33,643 bases of DNA, taken from positions 1 through 33,643 of the forward strand of contig PEAG01000038.1 in the NCBI GenBank assembly GCA_002753505.1, in the 5' to 3' direction. This DNA is from Magnetococcales bacterium HCHbin5. GTDB taxonomy: Bacteria; Pseudomonadota; Magnetococcia; Magnetococcales; Magnetaquicoccaceae. Shown here piece after piece: positions 3,977 to 13,584 of the stretch (positions within the stretch are counted from its first letter, which is position 1; every line of letters begins with the position of its first letter). The position numbers and the translations under genes are program-made. The notes under the pieces were generated by a model that searched no databases, was not told the DNA's origin, and saw nothing but the letters and a program-made list of their open reading frames with translations.

Positions 3977-4137
3977 TGCTCACCATCCATGCCAGAATAT
4001 TCTCCTGCCAATAGGCAGCTGGGGGAAAAATTGTTAAATTAAGGGGGCGCACTGGATGCAACAGTGTGATAGCATGTGACAAGCCCTGGGTCGGAAAGCC
4101 ATTTACCAATCATATTTATACAGGAAACTTGACAGTT
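3977..4137. other. Divergent intergenic region between tatD and the TIGR03032-type gene
   Basis: Promoters for both directions should lie in these 161 bp. An AT-rich stretch at about 4101-4121 could hold a -10 element for the rightward gene, but no convincing -35 box is seen. AGGAAA at 4122-4127 serves as its ribosome-binding site. Confidence 0.4.
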
Positions 4138-5214
4138 ATGGAACAAACCGCCACCACGCCAACGCCCCCTTCCCTGGAAATGACCACCTCCCGCCAGATG
4201 CTCTCCTGGATGGCGGAACAGAACCTCTCCATTGCGTTGACCACCTATCAAATCGGCAAACTGTTTTTTCTGGGCCTGAAACCCAGTCAGGAGCTCTCCG
4301 TTTTTGAGCGTACCTTCAACCGTTGCATGGGTCTGTGTGCCACCGGCAACGGCCTTTTCATGAGTACACTGTACCAGATTTGGCGATTTGAAAATATTTT
4401 TGAGGCGGGACAGCAACAGGATGGCTTTGACCGCCTCTATCTGCCCCAGGTAGGCTATACCACGGGAGATCTGGATATTCATGACATGGCCGTGGATGGA
4501 GAGGGCCGCCTGCTGTTTATCAACACTCTCTTTGGCTGTCTGGCCACCCTGAGCGAAACCCACAGCTTCAAACCCCTCTGGCACCCCCCCTTTCTCAGCA
4601 AACTGGCGGCCGAAGACCGCTGTCACATGAACGGTCTGGCCATGAAAGAGGGACGCGCCACCTATGTCACCGCCGTCAGCGAGTCGGATGTGGCCGATGG
4701 TTGGCGGGAACATCGGGCGAATGGGGGCATTGTGATCGATATTGCCCGCAATGAGATTGTCCTGCGTGGACTCTCCATGCCCCACTCTCCCCGTTGGCAT
4801 AACGGCAAGCTCTGGCTGTTAAACTCCGGTACCGGGGAGTTTGGCTACGCGGACCTGGAGGCCGGACGTTTTGAACCGGTCTGTTTTTGTCCCGGTTATC
4901 TGCGTGGCTTGAGCCTGCATGGAGACTTTGCACTGGTCGGACTCTCCAAACCCCGCCACAACAAAACCTTTACCGGCCTGCCCCTGGACGATCGACTGCG
5001 CAACCACAAGGCAGAGCCCCGTTGCGGTATCCATGTCATCGACCTGCGAACAGGCGATGCCCCGCACTGGCTGCGGTTTGAAGGCATTGTGGACGAACTG
5101 TATGACGTCGTGGTCTTGCCCCGGGTGCGGCGTCCCATGGCCCTGGGATTCAAAACCGATGAGATCCGTCGGGTGCTGAGCGTCGAAGCCTGGACGGGCA
5201 ACCAGCCCCTCTAG
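4138..5214 (+). CDS. TIGR03032 family protein (function unknown)
   Basis: A 358-residue soluble protein that I recognise as TIGR03032-like from conserved blocks such as ATGNGLFMSTLYQIWRFEN (about 65-83), DIHDMAVD (about 115-122), CHMNGLAM, the SMPHSPRWHNGKLWLLNSGTG segment (cited in part: SMPHSPRWHNGKLWLLNSG) and FCPGYLRGLSLHGDFALVG. The repeated short strands with Gly and Trp suggest a beta-propeller-like fold; that part is inference. No signal peptide or membrane helix is present. The ATG at 4138 has AGGAAA 11 nt upstream and is preferred over the GTG at 4066, whose extra residues do not resemble the family. It lies 120 bp before, and on the same strand as, a sugar-nucleotide activating enzyme, which suggests a link to surface glycan synthesis. 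That link is unproven. Confidence 0.75.
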   Translation: MEQTATTPTPPSLEMTTSRQMLSWMAEQNLSIALTTYQIGKLFFLGLKPSQELSVFERTFNRCMGLCATGNGLFMSTLYQIWRFENIFEAGQQQDGFDRLYLPQVGYTTGDLDIHDMAVDGEGRLLFINTLFGCLATLSETHSFKPLWHPPFLSKLAAEDRCHMNGLAMKEGRATYVTAVSESDVADGWREHRANGGIVIDIARNEIVLRGLSMPHSPRWHNGKLWLLNSGTGEFGYADLEAGRFEPVCFCPGYLRGLSLHGDFALVGLSKPRHNKTFTGLPLDDRLRNHKAEPRCGIHVIDLRTGDAPHWLRFEGIVDELYDVVVLPRVRRPMALGFKTDEIRRVLSVEAWTGNQPL

Positions 5215-5334: not shown

Positions 5335-6393
5335 ATGAACAGACAAAAAGATTGGCGATCCGTCTTGATCCACCAGGAAGCCACCATTCTGGAGACCATT
5401 CAGGTTCTGGACAGGGGAGGTCTGCGGATTGCCCTGGTTGTGGATGAGGCATACCACCTGCTGGGTGTGGTCACAGATGGCAATGTGCGCCGCGGTCTGC
5501 TGAATCAGATTGGTCTCCAGGAACCGGTCAGCAAAATCATGACCGCCCATCCGATTACGGTGCAGGCCACCGACTCCCGGGAACATGTGTTGTCGCTGAT
5601 GAAAGCCAGCCAGATTGAACACATTCCGGTGCTGGATGACCAGGGTATCCTGATCGGCCTGGAGGTATTACAGGCGTTGACCCAACCGACAGCCAAGGAG
5701 AACCCGGTTGTCCTGATGGCGGGGGGACTGGGCAGTCGCCTGGGGGTTTTGACCGAAAATTGCCCCAAGCCACTGCTTCAGGTTGGTCCCAAACCTATCC
5801 TGGAGGTTATCCTTGAAAGCTTTCTGGAACATGGGTTTAACCGTTTTTATTTTTCTGTCAACTATAAAAAACATATGATCCAGGAGTATTTTGGTGACGG
5901 TTCGGCCTGGGGTGCCGAGATCCGCTACCTGGAAGAGACGGAGCGGATGGGAACAGCCGGCTCCCTCTCCCTGCTGCCGGAACCGCCGCAGTTGCCTTTT
6001 TTTGTGATGAACGGCGACCTGCTGACCCGCATCAACTTTCAACACATCCTGAACTTTCATGCCAAGCACCAGGCCCAGGCCACCCTCTGTGTGCGTCGAG
6101 TGGAGCAGACCATTCCCTTTGGGGTAGTGGAGATGGCGCAGCACCGGCTGCTCAAGATAGAGGAAAAACCGACCCAACACTATTTTGTCAATGCGGGTAT
6201 CTATCTCCTGGACCCCGTTTTACTGTCACTGATACCAGCCCAGCAACCGCTGGATATGCCGGATCTGTTTCGACAGGCGATCGAGCAGGGTTATGCAACC
6301 GCCGCCTTTCCCTTTTTGGATTATTGGATAGATATTGGTCAGATGGGAGATTATGACCGCGCCCAACGGGAGTATACCCAAATATACAAATAG
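5335..6393 (+). CDS. CBS-domain nucleotidyltransferase (PtmE/LegF-like sugar-1-phosphate nucleotidylyltransferase)
   Basis: A 352-residue cytoplasmic enzyme with two CBS motifs (about 12-60 and 66-115) fused to an NTP-transferase domain (about 124-350). The nucleotide-binding signature LMAGGLGSRL is at 127-136, the KP pair at 145-146, and a metal-binding NGDLLT motif follows near residue 225. This architecture is that of PtmE-type enzymes, described in Campylobacter as making GDP-glucosamine for legionaminic acid; related enzymes activate mannose or heptose. The exact sugar cannot be read from the sequence. CBS domains normally sense adenine nucleotides. GGGAG is placed 8 nt before ATG 5335. 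No other nonulosonate gene is in the window, so the pathway context is missing. Confidence 0.85.
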   Translation: MNRQKDWRSVLIHQEATILETIQVLDRGGLRIALVVDEAYHLLGVVTDGNVRRGLLNQIGLQEPVSKIMTAHPITVQATDSREHVLSLMKASQIEHIPVLDDQGILIGLEVLQALTQPTAKENPVVLMAGGLGSRLGVLTENCPKPLLQVGPKPILEVILESFLEHGFNRFYFSVNYKKHMIQEYFGDGSAWGAEIRYLEETERMGTAGSLSLLPEPPQLPFFVMNGDLLTRINFQHILNFHAKHQAQATLCVRRVEQTIPFGVVEMAQHRLLKIEEKPTQHYFVNAGIYLLDPVLLSLIPAQQPLDMPDLFRQAIEQGYATAAFPFLDYWIDIGQMGDYDRAQREYTQIYK

Positions 6394-6438: not shown

Positions 6439-7077
6439 TCACACAAAAGGGTGTAGAGCCAGGGCAACCAGGGCCAACCCTGCGCCACGCCGCAAGTAGG
6501 GGGAAAAAGCGGGCAGCAGGCTCTGTAAGGCCTCACCTGTCCGGCCCAACAGGGCGGCAGCCAGCAGCACGGGAGCCAATGCGGTGGTCGTGCCAAACAG
6601 TGCCCCATGCAGCAACCCCATCATGGTACTACCGGTCAGGGAACAGGCGGTCAACACGCCGACCAGGGTGGGACAGGGCACCAGACTGATGGCCATGCCA
6701 AGCAGCAAGGGTGGCCAGTGTGCCGCCCGGTTGCCAGGGCAGCCGCGATGAGAGGTGGCTACACCCCCCCGCCTGCCCACCAAGAGCAGCGACAGACCGG
6801 CCAGCATGCTGATCCCCGCCAGGATGAGACGCCCATACAGGGCGGTGGTATGGGCCAACAGCAGATGGCCCAGGGCCGCCGCCACTCCGCCCAGCAGGGC
6901 ATAGGCCATCACCCGTCCCAACAGGAACAACCCGGCCGGTTGCCAGGGGCGCGCCGGGGTCTGTCCCAAAATCCAGGCCCCGAAATAGGGCAAACAGACC
7001 GCCGAACAGGCGGTAAATCCCATGGTCAGACCAAGCAGAGCGGTGGTTGACAGAGAGAGCGGCACCGCTTCAACCAT
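6439..7077 (-). CDS. CcdA/TauE-like six-helix membrane protein with paired cysteines
   Basis: A 212-residue integral membrane protein with about six helices. It resembles the sulfite exporter TauE/SafE and DsbD-transmembrane (CcdA, UreH-like) superfamily. Two cysteine-bearing segments occupy equivalent places in the two halves: FTACSAVCLP (C24, C28) in the first helix and SLVPCPT (C135) in the fourth, as in thiol-electron carriers of the CcdA type. C113 and C145 are additional. Expected role: moving reducing equivalents, or a ligand, across the inner membrane. ATG 7077 overlaps the upstream ferredoxin gene by 8 nt, fixing it as the last gene of the four-gene operon. Longer in-frame starts read through the ferredoxin gene and are rejected. 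Family is fairly sure; substrate is not. Confidence 0.8.
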   Translation of the reverse strand: MVEAVPLSLSTTALLGLTMGFTACSAVCLPYFGAWILGQTPARPWQPAGLFLLGRVMAYALLGGVAAALGHLLLAHTTALYGRLILAGISMLAGLSLLLVGRRGGVATSHRGCPGNRAAHWPPLLLGMAISLVPCPTLVGVLTACSLTGSTMMGLLHGALFGTTTALAPVLLAAALLGRTGEALQSLLPAFSPYLRRGAGLALVALALHPFV

Positions 7078-8110
7078 GGGATACCCCCTCTGCGCTCGGC
7101 TTGCGAGTGCGCAGGGAACCGTTGGCCAATTCAACCCGACTGCGGGCGCGAAAAATTTCCGGGCGTGAACGGTAGAGGCTGACAGGACCAAATTTAAGAT
7201 GCAACACCTGATCCTGGGGACAAAACTCCACGCAACGGCCACACAGGGTGCAATCATCGTGAAAAATGTTTTTGTCCTGCGGCAGGGCAATTTCGGCAAT
7301 CTCCATGGGACAGGCCGCGTGACAACTGCGGCAACGTCCACAGTGGGGGTGAGGATTTTTGGTCAGGCGTAACGGTGCCATCCGTTTAAAAATGGCATTG
7401 AATGCCAACATGGGGCAAATTCTGCAAAAGGGCTGTCGAACCACAACAGCGGCGGTCACCATGAATCCAAAGAGCAAATTGCCCAGCAAACCCAGCACAA
7501 TATCGCCGCTGTCACCCACAGCCAGGGCGATCTGCTCGCCGTTGCCGGTCAGGAGAGTGGTCAAAATTCGCGATGGACAGACCCGGCACCACGCCTCGCC
7601 AGCCGCCCCCGGCAACCAACCCAATCCGGCTGCCAGCGGCAGCAAAAAGACAAAAAACAGCAACAAAAACCATTTGATGGACCTGACACCCGACAGCCAG
7701 CCCGGCGGCAGGTTGTGCGCGACCATCCCCAATCGGCGGCCGATGGTGTACAACAGCTCCTGCACACTGCCCAGTGGACAGACCCAGCCACAGAATGCCT
7801 TGTTCAGCACCACAAAAAAGCTCAAAAAGGCCAGCAGGGTCCACAACAGGGGGGCAAACAGTGCCCAGTCGGCGGTTCCCGTTCGAGCCATGGTCTCGCC
7901 AACCTGGTGGGATGAGAGGTGCTGAAAAGGGCGCAAGGCGCACCAGGCCCCGTTCTGCTGGTCATAGGTGCAGGAAAGCGCAGGCAGCGCGGTTGAAATT
8001 TTATCGGCAGCATAAGGACCGATCACAAGGCCCCCATAGACGGTGACCATAAAGAGGATGATTTGCACCCCGCTGCGCAACCGACTCAATGAAATGGCTC
8101 TCCCACTCAT
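7070..8110 (-). CDS. NapH/CcoG-like membrane polyferredoxin
   Basis: A 346-residue membrane protein with several hydrophobic segments and cysteine motifs typical of quinol- or NAD-linked polyferredoxins. Two ferredoxin-type 4Fe-4S motifs lie near the C-terminus (C257, C260, C263, C267 and C287, C290, C293, C297). Three CxxxCP or CxxCP clusters occur between helices: CGWVCPLG (C107, C111), WCRVCP (C175, C178) and FCRICP (C229, C232). C47 and C57 lie in a predicted non-membrane loop. Family members pass electrons from the cytoplasm or quinol pool to periplasmic reactions (NapH, NosR-like, FtrD-like). The start is ATG 8110, which overlaps the previous stop as ATGA. It is third in an operon with a TonB receptor, so a role in reductive release of an imported metal is plausible but inferred. 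Confidence 0.87.
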   Translation of the reverse strand: MSGRAISLSRLRSGVQIILFMVTVYGGLVIGPYAADKISTALPALSCTYDQQNGAWCALRPFQHLSSHQVGETMARTGTADWALFAPLLWTLLAFLSFFVVLNKAFCGWVCPLGSVQELLYTIGRRLGMVAHNLPPGWLSGVRSIKWFLLLFFVFLLPLAAGLGWLPGAAGEAWCRVCPSRILTTLLTGNGEQIALAVGDSGDIVLGLLGNLLFGFMVTAAVVVRQPFCRICPMLAFNAIFKRMAPLRLTKNPHPHCGRCRSCHAACPMEIAEIALPQDKNIFHDDCTLCGRCVEFCPQDQVLHLKFGPVSLYRSRPEIFRARSRVELANGSLRTRKPSAEGVSHG

Positions 8111-8949
8111 GCCCGTTCTCCTTTGCGCGACCGCCATAACGAGGCTCCACCCACCATTCCCACCCCGGTCACCAGCCACCCCCAAGCCGGATTTCGGTTG
8201 TAGAACGGGTCGGGACCATACTCATACTGAAAAACGGTTGTAAACCGTTTGGACTCCGCTGGCCACGTCACAGCCAGTTGAAAGGGTTGCAGCGGTGGAC
8301 GATGACGGGGTTGTGGTCCGGTTTGTTGGCTTGGCGACAGCGGAAAGGGCGGCAATTGCACCCGAAGAATCCCCTGCGCATCGGTGGCCAACCGCTCTTC
8401 CGGTTGTCCGGGCGCATAAAGGGTGACGACTTGGTTGGGCAGCGGATGCTGACCAAAACGGACCAGAAAGTGGCCCGTCTCCCCCGCCCGGTACCGGGAA
8501 AACTCCCGTGGCAACGGTTGGGGAATGATCTCCAACCGGGACTTGGGGGAGACAAGCATGGCCGCGGGCGACGGCCCGGCCATGGCAAAATAGTGGGCCG
8601 TCGTCCAGGTATACTCCTGTTGCGGGCCACTGCTTTGGGCCATGATCCAGTGATAGTTGCCCACACCATCAGCCCGGAGGGTGGTCCCCTCCGGGTTGAC
8701 GGGAACCACCCGGGCCAGAGCGGTTGGATCATGGCCAACGGTGGGGGGAAAGTCCGTCAGGGTCTCGAACCCCTGCGGAATCGCCACCAACCGCAGCTCG
8801 GTGCGGCCCTTGACCTCCTTGCGCAACACGGGATAAGGCGTCCAGTCGGGCGACGGCCCCCGCTCCCCCGCCATGCCCGGGGCGGCGATGGCGAGGGTTC
8901 CGAGGCAGATAAACACAGCCCACTTGGCACGCATGCCGGGCCTTACCAT
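8107..8949 (-). CDS. DUF4198-like periplasmic protein with C-terminal membrane anchor
   Basis: A 280-residue exported protein. A signal sequence (about 8-27, ending AAPGMAG) is followed by a periplasmic part with beta-rich motifs similar to DUF4198 / NikM-like proteins. These include WTTAHYFAMAG, RLEIIPQPLP, the RAGETGHFLVRFGQHPLPNQ block and ATDAQGILRVQLP, which is the usual 'DADG' strand pair. A single hydrophobic helix (about 256-272, WGWLVTGVGMVGGASLW) and a short RSRKGER tail anchor it. DUF4198 proteins accompany metal transporters and TonB receptors and are thought to bind metals. ATG 8949 overlaps the receptor stop by 7 nt; ATG 8934 has TAAGG at better spacing and is an equally good start. 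Product naming is moderately sure. Confidence 0.75.
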   Translation of the reverse strand: MVRPGMRAKWAVFICLGTLAIAAPGMAGERGPSPDWTPYPVLRKEVKGRTELRLVAIPQGFETLTDFPPTVGHDPTALARVVPVNPEGTTLRADGVGNYHWIMAQSSGPQQEYTWTTAHYFAMAGPSPAAMLVSPKSRLEIIPQPLPREFSRYRAGETGHFLVRFGQHPLPNQVVTLYAPGQPEERLATDAQGILRVQLPPFPLSPSQQTGPQPRHRPPLQPFQLAVTWPAESKRFTTVFQYEYGPDPFYNRNPAWGWLVTGVGMVGGASLWRSRKGERA

Positions 8950-11096
8950 TTGGCCTGTAATCCGACAAAGGCCATGCGCGGCATGCCGGGAGCATAGAGC
9001 TCATTGCCGCCATAACTGAGTTGGCCGGTCTCCGCATACCGCTTGTCCAACAGATTGGTGACGCTGCCAAACAGATCCAACTCCTTGGTGATGGGATAGC
9101 TTCCCCGCAGATTGAAAAGATCGTGGCCACTATATTTTTTGGTATTGGCCGGATCCAGCCAATAACTGCCCAGTGTCACCCACTCCAGTGTCAGCTGACC
9201 TTTTTGGCCCTGATCGGGGGCATAGCGGAGACTGGTGTTGCCGACCACGCGGGGGGCCTTATCCATCTCTTTGCCGTCATATACCACCGTGGCAGATTCG
9301 CGCCACTGCTCAAAGGTATGCTTGGCATAGGAGAGGGCTGTGCGCAGACGCCAATCCTCTGCTATTGCCGCACCTACCCCCACTTCGATCCCTTTGTGAG
9401 AGGTTTCACCCGCATTCGTGACTCTGCGCACCCCGTCTGCCGGGTCCAGATAGCTGACCACATCGTCGCTTTTTTGCATATAGTAGAGGGAGAGCTCATA
9501 GTCGATCCCGCCGCCACTTTTCCCCCGCACCCCCACCTCGTAGCTGTCCACCTTGACCGGTTTAAGGCTCAGGGCAGCACGGGCAGCGGCCTGAGCCAGG
9601 TCGTCGCTGCTGCTGGCGGAGGGTCGGAACAACTGTCCCTCCGAAGGGGCCCGGAAGGCATGATTATAGGCGACAAAACCGCTCAGATTGTCGGTAATGG
9701 CATAGGTCGCCCCCAGCTTGGGACTCAGGTGGGCAAAATCAACGCTGGTATCCTCCGCATGGCCATACACCTTGGTCCCAATGGTGGTATCCACGGCAAT
9801 GGGTACGGCAGCCATCTTGTTGTCATACGCATACCGGATGGTATCGTAGCGCAGTCCGGCGGTGACACGCAGCCGCTCGTTGGGAGAAAACTCCCCATGC
9901 AGATAGGGTGAAATGCCGCGATAGGTCACATCATACTCATAAATTCTGGGACCATTGCTATAACTGCTGTAGACGATGGAGTCCCCGGAGGTGCCGGGAG
10001 AGACGGTGGTGATAATGCTCTGTTCTTCGCGTCCGCCGGGGCTGTGGTCCACATCCAGACCGAGAATAATGCGGGTACGCCAGGGCTGAAAATCCCGCCG
10101 ATATTTGAGCATCAACCCGTAGGAGTCGTTGAAGGTGTCATAGATGGTCTGGTCATAGCTCATCGACCAACTGGGCATAATGTCCATGTTGTCATGCCGA
10201 AAATAGGGGGCGATCGAAATCAGGCTGTCACCGCTCTCCTGTTCGTAGGCACTGGAAAGACGGAAGGCCTGGACTTTACGAAACGTGATCGGCGAATAGT
10301 TGCGTGTGGGATTGTTGTGCAGATCATCTTTGGTCACGTTGGCCGACCCGGAGCTCTCCTGATCAATGTTGGAATAGGTCGCCGTCGTTTTCAGGAAGGC
10401 GTTGTCGCCAATGGCCTGGTCCCAGCGCAGGGTGCCGCTTTGGCGGTCAAAGGCGGTCTTGTCAATCCAGCCGTCGGTATGGGTCAGGTTCAGGTCACCA
10501 CGGATGGCATGGTTGCCAATGCCGTTGCCACCGGTCAACAGGAGCCGTTTCCAGCCATAGGAGCCCACCTCTCCACTGGCCTCCACCTCTGGGGTAGTGG
10601 GCGGTTTGCGCGTCTGAACATTGATCACGCCGCCGATGGCATCCGAACCATAGAGAGAGGTTCCCGGACCCTTGTTGACCTCAATACCGCCAGACATGGG
10701 CAGATTGACCTCATAAAGGGCATTGTGGTTAAAAAAACCTGTGGAACGGGTGGGAATGCCATCCTCCAGATAGAGATAGACCGGATTGGTGGTCAAGGGC
10801 TGGCGAATCATGGTCATATGCCCTTCGCCCCCCGCCTTGTTGATCCAGACACCAGGCACCTGTCCCAGAATATCACCAGGGTGGGTGGGATGCTGCGCCT
10901 GGATCTCCTGTTCCTTGATCACATCCACGGTGGCGGGCGTTTCCGAGAGACGCGCCCCTTCACGGGTGCCCGTGACGGTCACTTCGGGCAGAGTCTGGGC
11001 AGCATCCTGATTGGCCGAGGCCGTTGGGATACTCAGGAGACAGGCCAAACTCAGAAGCAGAGGGCGTCCAATACGATCAATAGCTGTGGGTGGCAT
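8943..11096 (-). CDS. TonB-dependent outer-membrane receptor
   Basis: A 717-residue outer-membrane receptor. After a signal peptide (about 1-28) comes a TonB-box-like LPEVTVTGTR (36-45), then the plug domain (about 50-160) with DILGQVPGVWI, YLEDGIPTRS and GPGTSLYGSDAIGGVINVQT. The 22-strand barrel fills the rest and ends in an aromatic residue (GLQAKW). Length is usual for ferric-siderophore, haem or cobalamin receptors; the substrate cannot be read off. TTGGAG lies 8 nt before ATG 11096. It heads an operon with the DUF4198-like, polyferredoxin and CcdA-like genes, all overlapping, so the four are almost certainly co-translated. No energiser genes (TonB/ExbBD) or inner-membrane ABC permease are in the window. 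Confidence 0.93.
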   Translation of the reverse strand: MPPTAIDRIGRPLLLSLACLLSIPTASANQDAAQTLPEVTVTGTREGARLSETPATVDVIKEQEIQAQHPTHPGDILGQVPGVWINKAGGEGHMTMIRQPLTTNPVYLYLEDGIPTRSTGFFNHNALYEVNLPMSGGIEVNKGPGTSLYGSDAIGGVINVQTRKPPTTPEVEASGEVGSYGWKRLLLTGGNGIGNHAIRGDLNLTHTDGWIDKTAFDRQSGTLRWDQAIGDNAFLKTTATYSNIDQESSGSANVTKDDLHNNPTRNYSPITFRKVQAFRLSSAYEQESGDSLISIAPYFRHDNMDIMPSWSMSYDQTIYDTFNDSYGLMLKYRRDFQPWRTRIILGLDVDHSPGGREEQSIITTVSPGTSGDSIVYSSYSNGPRIYEYDVTYRGISPYLHGEFSPNERLRVTAGLRYDTIRYAYDNKMAAVPIAVDTTIGTKVYGHAEDTSVDFAHLSPKLGATYAITDNLSGFVAYNHAFRAPSEGQLFRPSASSSDDLAQAAARAALSLKPVKVDSYEVGVRGKSGGGIDYELSLYYMQKSDDVVSYLDPADGVRRVTNAGETSHKGIEVGVGAAIAEDWRLRTALSYAKHTFEQWRESATVVYDGKEMDKAPRVVGNTSLRYAPDQGQKGQLTLEWVTLGSYWLDPANTKKYSGHDLFNLRGSYPITKELDLFGSVTNLLDKRYAETGQLSYGGNELYAPGMPRMAFVGLQAKW

Positions 11097-12016: not shown

Positions 12017-12279
12017 ATATTCTCTTCCTGCACGAACCCAACAGGAGTGGCTCCAGAGCTGCCCACGCCATTTTTCTCGAATTTTGTAACCGGACCGGCT
12101 GTGACGAGGGAGAGCAGACTACCGGGTCAGTGTATCTCTTTGCTGGGTGGAATGCCACCAGATTCGCCCTTATGCAAAAATGGGCTTTGGGAACACACGC
12201 ATTGCAGCAGGGGTTCCTGTACCCGAATGGGGACCGTGACGGTCCCCAAAACCATCAACAAAACAAAAAATCGGGCTGC
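12017..12279. other. Intergenic region between rlmD and the DUF4160 gene
   Basis: These 263 bp hold a decayed repeat copy (12165-12256) and presumably the leftward promoter of the DUF4160/DUF2442 pair, for which I see no clear boxes. Confidence 0.5.
12165..12256. repeat. Decayed copy of the intergenic repeat (modules A and B)
   Basis: GGGGACCGTGACGGTCCCC (12229-12247) is a perfect copy of the second module-A hairpin. The first hairpin is eroded to CAGGGGTTCCTGTA. The adjacent module B has lost part of one arm (GCCCTTATGCA against AAAAATGGGC). It lies 24 nt past the rlmD stop, so the surviving hairpin may end rlmD transcripts. Confidence 0.7.
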
Positions 12280-13584
12280 TCAACCGGGACGGACAAAAAG
12301 GGCAACCAACTCCAGATGAAATGTCTGGGGAAACAGATCGATAGGTTGCAACCGCTCCAGCCGGAAACCGGACCGCACCAGCAGCGAGGCATCACGGGCA
12401 AAGGTGGCCGGATTGCAGGAGACATACACCAACCGTTTGATCGACGTGCCGATCAACCATTTGACTACAGCCAAGGCCCCCTCCCTGGGTGGGTCCAACA
12501 AGACCAGATCCGCCGCCGGCTCGGCCGCCAGCCGGGCAATCTGCCGCTCCTGAAACAGGTCCAGGGCACGAAAACAGACCCCCGACAATTGAGCCTCCCG
12601 GGCATTGGCCTCCCCCCGCTGCAAGGCAGGCGCGTACCCCTCCACCCCCACCACCCGGGCAAACCGCTGCGCCAACGGCAAGGTAAAATTGCCGATCCCG
12701 CAAAACAGATCCCAGGCCACCTCCCCAGCCCCACCCTGCCGCAAAGCCTCCTGCACCAACAGACGGTTGCCCTCCCGATGGGCCTGGATAAAATCGCCCG
12801 GATGAAAAGACAACCGCTGCGACTCAAGCCGGTAAAAAAGTTCCGCCCCATTGACTACAGCCTGCAACCCTGATTTGCGACCCCGCTGCAACCAAAGCTG
12901 CGCAATCCCCTGCTGGCGGGCAAACTGCTGCAACCGCTCCCGATCGGGCTGGCCGGGGGATACCAACAGGTGAAAAATCAACCCCACCCCCTCCTCACCC
13001 ACCACCGCATCCACCTGGGGCAACTGTTGACACACCGCAAGAGAGGTGATCAACGCACGCAAGGGCGCAATCAATGCGCTTAAACGACGATCCAACACCG
13101 GACAGTGATCCGGCAGATCGGCAATATGGTGCGAAGCCGCCTGAAAAAATCCCACCAAAAGCCGGGAACCCACCCACCGCACCTTGAAACTGGCCCGACA
13201 GCGATAGCCATCCTCCCACCCTTCCACCCCCCAGGCAGGCAGCACCTCCCCATCCCGCAGATTGGGAAAACGACCCAGGGTCTCCCGCACAAACTCTCCC
13301 TTGATCCGTTGCTGGCAAGCGGGCGTCAAATGGCGCAACTGACACCCCCCACACACCGTATAACGCTCACAGGCCGGCTCCGTCCGCTCGGCTCCCGCCG
13401 CCAATATTTCCACACAGCGACCAAACAGGCAGTTGGAGTGCCTTTTGGTCACCTCCGCTACAATACGGTCACCAGGAGCCGTAAACGGCACAAACAGGGC
13501 ACTCCCTTCATGAAAGCCCAACCCTGCCCCCCCCGGCACCACCTTGTCAATCTGAACGATCACCCGCTCTGCCGTAGCCGCCAT
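12280..13584 (-). CDS. rlmD: 23S rRNA (uracil-1939-C5)-methyltransferase RlmD (RumA)
   Basis: A 434-residue TrmA/RumA-family enzyme that methylates C5 of U1939 in 23S rRNA using S-adenosylmethionine. An N-terminal TRAM-like domain (about 5-60) is followed by four iron-sulfur cysteines, C72, C78, C81 (CERYTVCGGC) and C161 (DHCPVL). The methyltransferase motifs are DLFCGIGNFTLPLA (292-305), LLDPPREG and YVSCNPATFARD with nucleophile C390. ATG 13584 is preferred over ATG 13599 because AAGGAG (13590-13595) sits 5 nt before it. An RlmC or TrmA assignment is less likely given length and TRAM domain. A Fur-box-like site lies in its upstream region. Confidence 0.88.
   Translation of the reverse strand: MAATAERVIVQIDKVVPGGAGLGFHEGSALFVPFTAPGDRIVAEVTKRHSNCLFGRCVEILAAGAERTEPACERYTVCGGCQLRHLTPACQQRIKGEFVRETLGRFPNLRDGEVLPAWGVEGWEDGYRCRASFKVRWVGSRLLVGFFQAASHHIADLPDHCPVLDRRLSALIAPLRALITSLAVCQQLPQVDAVVGEEGVGLIFHLLVSPGQPDRERLQQFARQQGIAQLWLQRGRKSGLQAVVNGAELFYRLESQRLSFHPGDFIQAHREGNRLLVQEALRQGGAGEVAWDLFCGIGNFTLPLAQRFARVVGVEGYAPALQRGEANAREAQLSGVCFRALDLFQERQIARLAAEPAADLVLLDPPREGALAVVKWLIGTSIKRLVYVSCNPATFARDASLLVRSGFRLERLQPIDLFPQTFHLELVALFVRPG

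Follow-up and report, generated by a model that had tools for sequence, protein, structure and literature searches.

A stretch of 33,643 nucleotides from Magnetococcales bacterium HCHbin5 (contig PEAG01000038.1; hereafter the window) contains an operon of four overlapping genes. It is read on the minus strand from 11096 to 6439 and encodes, in this order, a TonB-dependent receptor, a DUF4198-like periplasmic protein, a NapH-like membrane polyferredoxin and a membrane protein of the DsbD_2 family (PF13386, "SafE-like"), the successive overlaps being 7, 4 and 8 nucleotides. The set that an earlier note had described from the DNA alone is therefore present in full. Related loci were collected with the polyferredoxin alone as query, using one genome per species, which yielded 238 relatives, the best 80 of which were kept. 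All four genes are present at 61 of the 63 loci having enough flanking sequence. The earlier note had made its reading depend on the genes occurring together elsewhere, and since nearly all loci found via a single gene retain the other three, their arrangement is not due to chance. Literature searches covering open-licence papers found no paper on the four-gene set, in agreement with the earlier remark that no characterised example was known; the operon is thus widespread and apparently undescribed.

Features of the four proteins

The polyferredoxin (7070..8110, 346 amino acids; Fer4_5, Fer4_9 and Fer4_10) belongs to the same membrane protein family as the quinol dehydrogenases NapH and NosR, and has the broad features of NapH-like proteins: four long helices, two cysteine-pair motifs and two C-terminal [4Fe-4S] motifs. 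Although its best NCBIfam match is NapH (3.3e-19), it falls well below the equivalog cut-offs of that database (69.1 versus 234 bits for NF007013 and 63.3 versus 213 bits for TIGR02163), so that assignment as NapH itself was rejected. Assignment as CcoG was also rejected, as no FixG_C or Ig-like Pfam match appears at E values up to 1 and the chain ends about 50 residues past the second cluster. None of the 16 cysteines varies among 80 sequences, and D50, Q63, H64 and H68 are equally constant. The cysteines fall into six groups, the pairs 47/57, 107/111, 175/178 and 229/232 and two four-cysteine clusters, which corrects the previous count of about seven pairs or clusters. C107/C111, C229/C232 and the eight ferredoxin cysteines are common to NapH and YccM of Escherichia coli, whereas C47, C57, H64, H68, C175 and C178 are absent from both. 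In a structure model with a mean predicted local distance difference test score (pLDDT) of 84, the long helices span residues 8-30, 82-102, 138-163 and 201-223, and the loops 31-81 and 164-200 contain exactly these six extra residues. Both loops are predicted to be periplasmic because the positively charged C-terminal ferredoxin domain is placed in the cytoplasm, and loop charges across the family are consistent with this placement. No geometry is claimed for the site, as loop 45-50 is modelled at low confidence, and a fold search with the model gave no significant match. A periplasmic cysteine/histidine site fed by iron-sulfur (Fe-S) clusters would be what a copper reductase needs.

The DsbD_2 protein (6439..7077, 212 amino acids) matches PF13386 (6e-17) at 62.6 bits, against a gathering score of 24.9. 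C24 and C28 in predicted helix 1 and C135 in predicted helix 4 are invariant in 52 sequences, as expected from the six-helix protein with cysteines in helices 1 and 4 described before. CcdA-type proteins move thiol electrons, and metal ions are the cargo of other members of the wider superfamily. The protein may thus be either a Cu(I) permease or a thiol-electron conduit; the earlier statement that the operon has no permease is accordingly uncertain. PF13386-like proteins also adjoin CopA and NosL genes at three loci (L056, L059 and L102). At two of them a further SafE-like PF13386 gene is accompanied by NosL-like genes and a copper P-type ATPase (L056:11823-13742; L102:1862-2467 and 12272-12973), which suggests that this family is linked to copper more widely.

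The DUF4198-like protein (8107..8949, 280 amino acids) has a signal peptide and a C-terminal membrane helix predicted at residues 254-277. It has no direct match to Pfam PF10670, but 10 of 15 family sequences do match DUF4198, the best at 3.5e-5. Its structure model (pLDDT 89) is rich in beta-strands with a helix at the C-terminus, and the top PDB match of the model, at 6.8e-7, is 9gcb, a nickel-bound DUF4198 protein of Ideonella sakaiensis. In fold, the protein thus resembles a metal-binding DUF4198 protein, and the earlier description of an anchored, DUF4198-like periplasmic protein holds. In the Ideonella protein, nickel is bound by the N-terminal histidine and a second histidine (PMC12537917). 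In many relatives of the window protein a histidine follows the signal peptide closely, in most cases not as the first residue of the mature protein, and some relatives are histidine-rich. The window protein differs from the DUF4198/NikK proteins in its extra membrane anchor and in lacking a near-N-terminal histidine; it also has phenylalanine at 150 and arginine at 215, where histidine is common in the family, although H100 is kept. Because of these losses, metal binding by this particular protein is doubtful. A DUF4198 family search of the window's own genome gave no match because this protein is too divergent, and a single-sequence scan of the genome's contigs with the protein itself gave none either.

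The receptor (8943..11096, 717 amino acids; PF00593 2.4e-45, Plug 5.5e-18) has YncD/PqqU as its closest solved structures. Two known types of copper receptor were tried and rejected. The OprC/NosA profile TIGR01778 covers it only in part, at 33.5 bits against a cut-off of 472, and the CxxxM site known from OprC (PMC7558416) is absent. CrtA (9rvq) ranks only third among the matches of the receptor profile, a weak relation scoring below YncD/PqqU.

Distribution and genomic neighborhood

The operon occurs in alpha-, beta- and gammaproteobacteria as well as in Magnetococcales, its hosts including Magnetovibrio, Magnetospirillum, many Rhodocyclales, Sulfuricella, Gallionellaceae, Thiobacillus and sulfur-oxidising symbionts. 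A search of 61 genomes detected the DUF4198-like protein in 16, including that of the window, and almost always within the same four-gene set. Genes for tonB, exbB and exbD are close by at some 25-33 loci, mostly directly downstream of the operon. The four proteins are not equally constant as partners: where the polyferredoxin is 51-54% identical to that of the window, the receptor may be 52-54% identical (L041, L025), yet it may also be only 21-22% identical (L026, L037). In Sulfuricella (L071), both receptor types flank a single trio of the other genes. Window-type receptors (L071:9798-11915; L051:11472-13634) stand beside operons already led by the other receptor type. It seems that the three inner genes form a constant core with exchangeable receptors, which suggests that different complexes are imported.

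Several variants and neighbors were noticed besides. At two loci (L029:9285-9815 and L030:9453-9989), a gene for a small secreted protein rich in cysteine and histidine is inserted between the receptor and DUF4198-like genes. A plasmid search yielded one distant variant only, on a plasmid of Sulfurovum mangrovi (L116, 4770-13040), which has a split receptor, a SafE-like protein and two 4Fe-4S proteins, one of them 30% identical to the polyferredoxin, followed by a 2-hydroxyacyl-CoA dehydratase family protein and its activase. In the window itself, a gene for a DUF4915 protein lies at 4066-5214 on the plus strand (6e-141), and a CBS-nucleotidyltransferase gene adjoins it at 5335-6393.

Which metal is imported had been left open, and here the neighborhoods point to copper. 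Neighbors were read from gene order and then confirmed with profiles. They include PCuAC, SCO1, NosL, NosD and DUF2946, together with TIGR01778 copper receptors, CopA-type ATPases, cytochrome oxidase subunit I (CoxA) and the copper storage protein Csp1. At least one copper marker lies within about 8 kilobases at 35 of 89 loci, or at 26 if sibling receptors are not counted, a total that is descriptive because the markers were picked after the neighborhoods had been seen. The CxxxM motif is present in 14 of 14 sibling receptors. Stronger evidence comes from DUF2946, which has been proven to act as a leader responding to copper in Bordetella pertussis, where it is called CruR (PMC9426467). Among 40 carrier genomes (137 megabases), 18 DUF2946 genes score above the cut-off, and 10 of them, in 7 genomes, are inside operon loci, which make up 0.48% of the sequence. 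The expected number is 0.09 (binomial P about 3e-19; 2e-13 when counted by genomes). DUF2946 was also chosen after being sighted in the loci, but such a choice does not account for an enrichment this large, two orders of magnitude above expectation. These leaders precede several copies of the operon, the window's copy not being among them. As further observations, a group consisting of a sialidase-like protein, a thioredoxin-like protein and another TonB receptor stands beside the operon at two loci (L045:12261-14041 and L097:2769-4507) and is possibly another copper module.

Regulatory sites bear on two other metals. Neither Fur-like nor NikR-like sites are in excess upstream of the operon loci. 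Uptake of ferri-siderophores, with the polyferredoxin reducing periplasmic Fe(III) as heme PepSY proteins do, would accord with iron being the metal for which a TonB receptor combined with periplasmic reduction is best known, and some DUF4198 genes of Caulobacter are under iron and Fur regulation (PMC3751524). However, in view of the Fur result, and because copper genes stand beside the operon where no FeoB or siderophore genes were noticed, this is an unlikely explanation. Uptake of nickel or cobalt, in which the DUF4198-like protein would bind nickel and pass it to the DsbD_2 protein as a UreH/HupE-like permease, draws on the nickel-bound 9gcb being the nearest solved structure and on the location of DUF4198 genes near TonB receptors and NikR in the Ideonella study (PMC12537917). 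It is the least probable of the readings considered: apart from the lack of excess NikR-like sites, no hydrogenase or urease genes were noticed among the many copper genes, and nickel needs no reduction, so that the polyferredoxin would lack an explanation. A link to cobalamin is likewise unsupported, as Rfam detected no riboswitch in the window and six loci. FNR-like sites with at most one mismatch occur in 10 of 76 upstream regions, the window's having none, versus none in one shuffle, which is suggestive of anaerobic control of some loci.

A candidate mechanism and its known counterparts

Copper is thus well supported as the metal of the operon family, and from its relatives we infer that it is also the ligand of the window's own operon. 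We consider it reasonably probable that the operon serves reductive copper acquisition with the Fe-S polyferredoxin as the reductase. An outline of the process would be as follows: the receptor, powered by TonB-ExbBD, would import a copper complex, probably a Cu(II)-chelate, into the periplasm, where the membrane-anchored DUF4198-like protein would take the ion or its complex. The polyferredoxin would pass electrons from the cytoplasm or the quinol pool via its two [4Fe-4S] clusters to the periplasmic site formed by C47, C57, H64, H68, C175 and C178, at which Cu(II) would be reduced to Cu(I) and freed from its ligand. Cu(I) would then go on to cuproenzymes such as cbb3 oxidase and nitrous oxide (N2O) reductase, or be carried further by the DsbD_2 protein, which alternatively would act as a thiol-electron conduit. 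A more specific version is put forward only tentatively: a widespread reductive importer in which outward Fe-S electrons reduce receptor-imported Cu(II) at the cysteine/histidine site and Cu(I) passes through the DsbD_2 protein as its permease. The logic proposed at the outset, in which an imported ligand meets a periplasmic binder and electrons cross the membrane, fits this anatomy; the reduction step, like the direction of electron flow and the part played by the DsbD_2 protein, is our inference.

Several observations weigh against copper acquisition. The closest solved relatives of the receptor, PqqU/YncD, import pyrroloquinoline quinone. No copper marker is near 54 of the 89 loci, and no copper gene adjoins the window operon, whose link to copper comes from relatives. 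The solved DUF4198 protein favours nickel over copper (PMC12537917), and the window's protein lacks the near-N-terminal histidine and the two others mentioned above. In addition, the cassette does not follow NosZ tightly. Its presence in several genomes without NosZ led us to reject a role confined to NosZ; the distribution of ccoN is uninformative because that gene is near-universal. The genome of the window does encode an OprC-type receptor, NosZ and a cbb3 oxidase, the receptor being a full TIGR01778 member of 699 bits (G000:C69:42991-44904).

The neighborhood also allows that the operon handles copper while the polyferredoxin and DsbD_2 protein, instead of reducing imported copper, act in the biogenesis of cuproenzymes, by reducing cysteines of CuA or a chaperone or by supplying electrons to, for example, NosZ. 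NosR/NapH-like proteins are electron donors to respiratory enzymes (PMC8238504), NosL/NosD and SCO are among the neighbors, and DsbD-like proteins normally carry thiol electrons. We regard this as improbable, if somewhat less so than iron uptake, since the receptor and DUF4198-like protein almost always stand alongside, the core set has no thioredoxin-like protein and, again, several carriers lack NosZ.

For reductive copper acquisition, how do the parts compare with those of known systems? FtrABCD, the comparison drawn in the earlier note, likewise has a polyferredoxin in a metal-uptake operon, whereas the present operon has no P19, cupredoxin or FTR1 permease. Functionally closer are cruR-crtA-crpH and CcoG. 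Chelated copper is taken up through crtA in B. pertussis, where the heme PepSY protein crpH has been proposed as the periplasmic copper reductase (PMC12914433, PMC13038864); a PepSY gene follows more than 75% of crtA genes, and the CrtA paper makes no mention of DUF4198 or 4Fe-4S. Both systems combine a TonB receptor with a downstream membrane protein as the proposed reductase of periplasmic copper, and the DUF2946 leader of the copper-regulated Bordetella operon is also found ahead of some copies of the cassette. However, the Bordetella reductase is a heme protein rather than an Fe-S polyferredoxin, its operon has no DUF4198-like and DsbD_2 genes, and its receptor is of another type. By analogy, the present operon may perform the task of CrtA-CrpH using other components. 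The cupric reductase CcoG, a membrane Fe-S protein (PMC7558416), resembles the polyferredoxin in its two [4Fe-4S] clusters and its tie to copper and oxidase biogenesis, but it has a C-terminal Ig-like domain and reportedly reduces cytoplasmic copper, whereas the extra cysteines and histidines of the polyferredoxin are on the predicted periplasmic side. OprC/NosA receptors, members of which adjoin several copies of the cassette, share with its proposed function the TonB-dependent import of copper; the cassette receptor differs in having no CxxxM site and a score far under their cut-off.

Known bacterial routes of copper uptake are few, and how imported Cu(II) is reduced and how copper passes the inner membrane is an open question on which this operon, a compact and conserved candidate for copper uptake, bears. 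If it is an outward-electron importer with a DsbD_2 permease, it would be the Fe-S counterpart of the heme-based CrpH. It also supplies a testable function for the PF13386 "SafE" family, and direct testing is possible because the carriers include cultured denitrifier-type Parazoarcus, Azonexus, Dechloromonas and Magnetospirillum. Copper supply is limiting for N2O reductase and cbb3 oxidase, so that the operon bears on the release of nitrous oxide.

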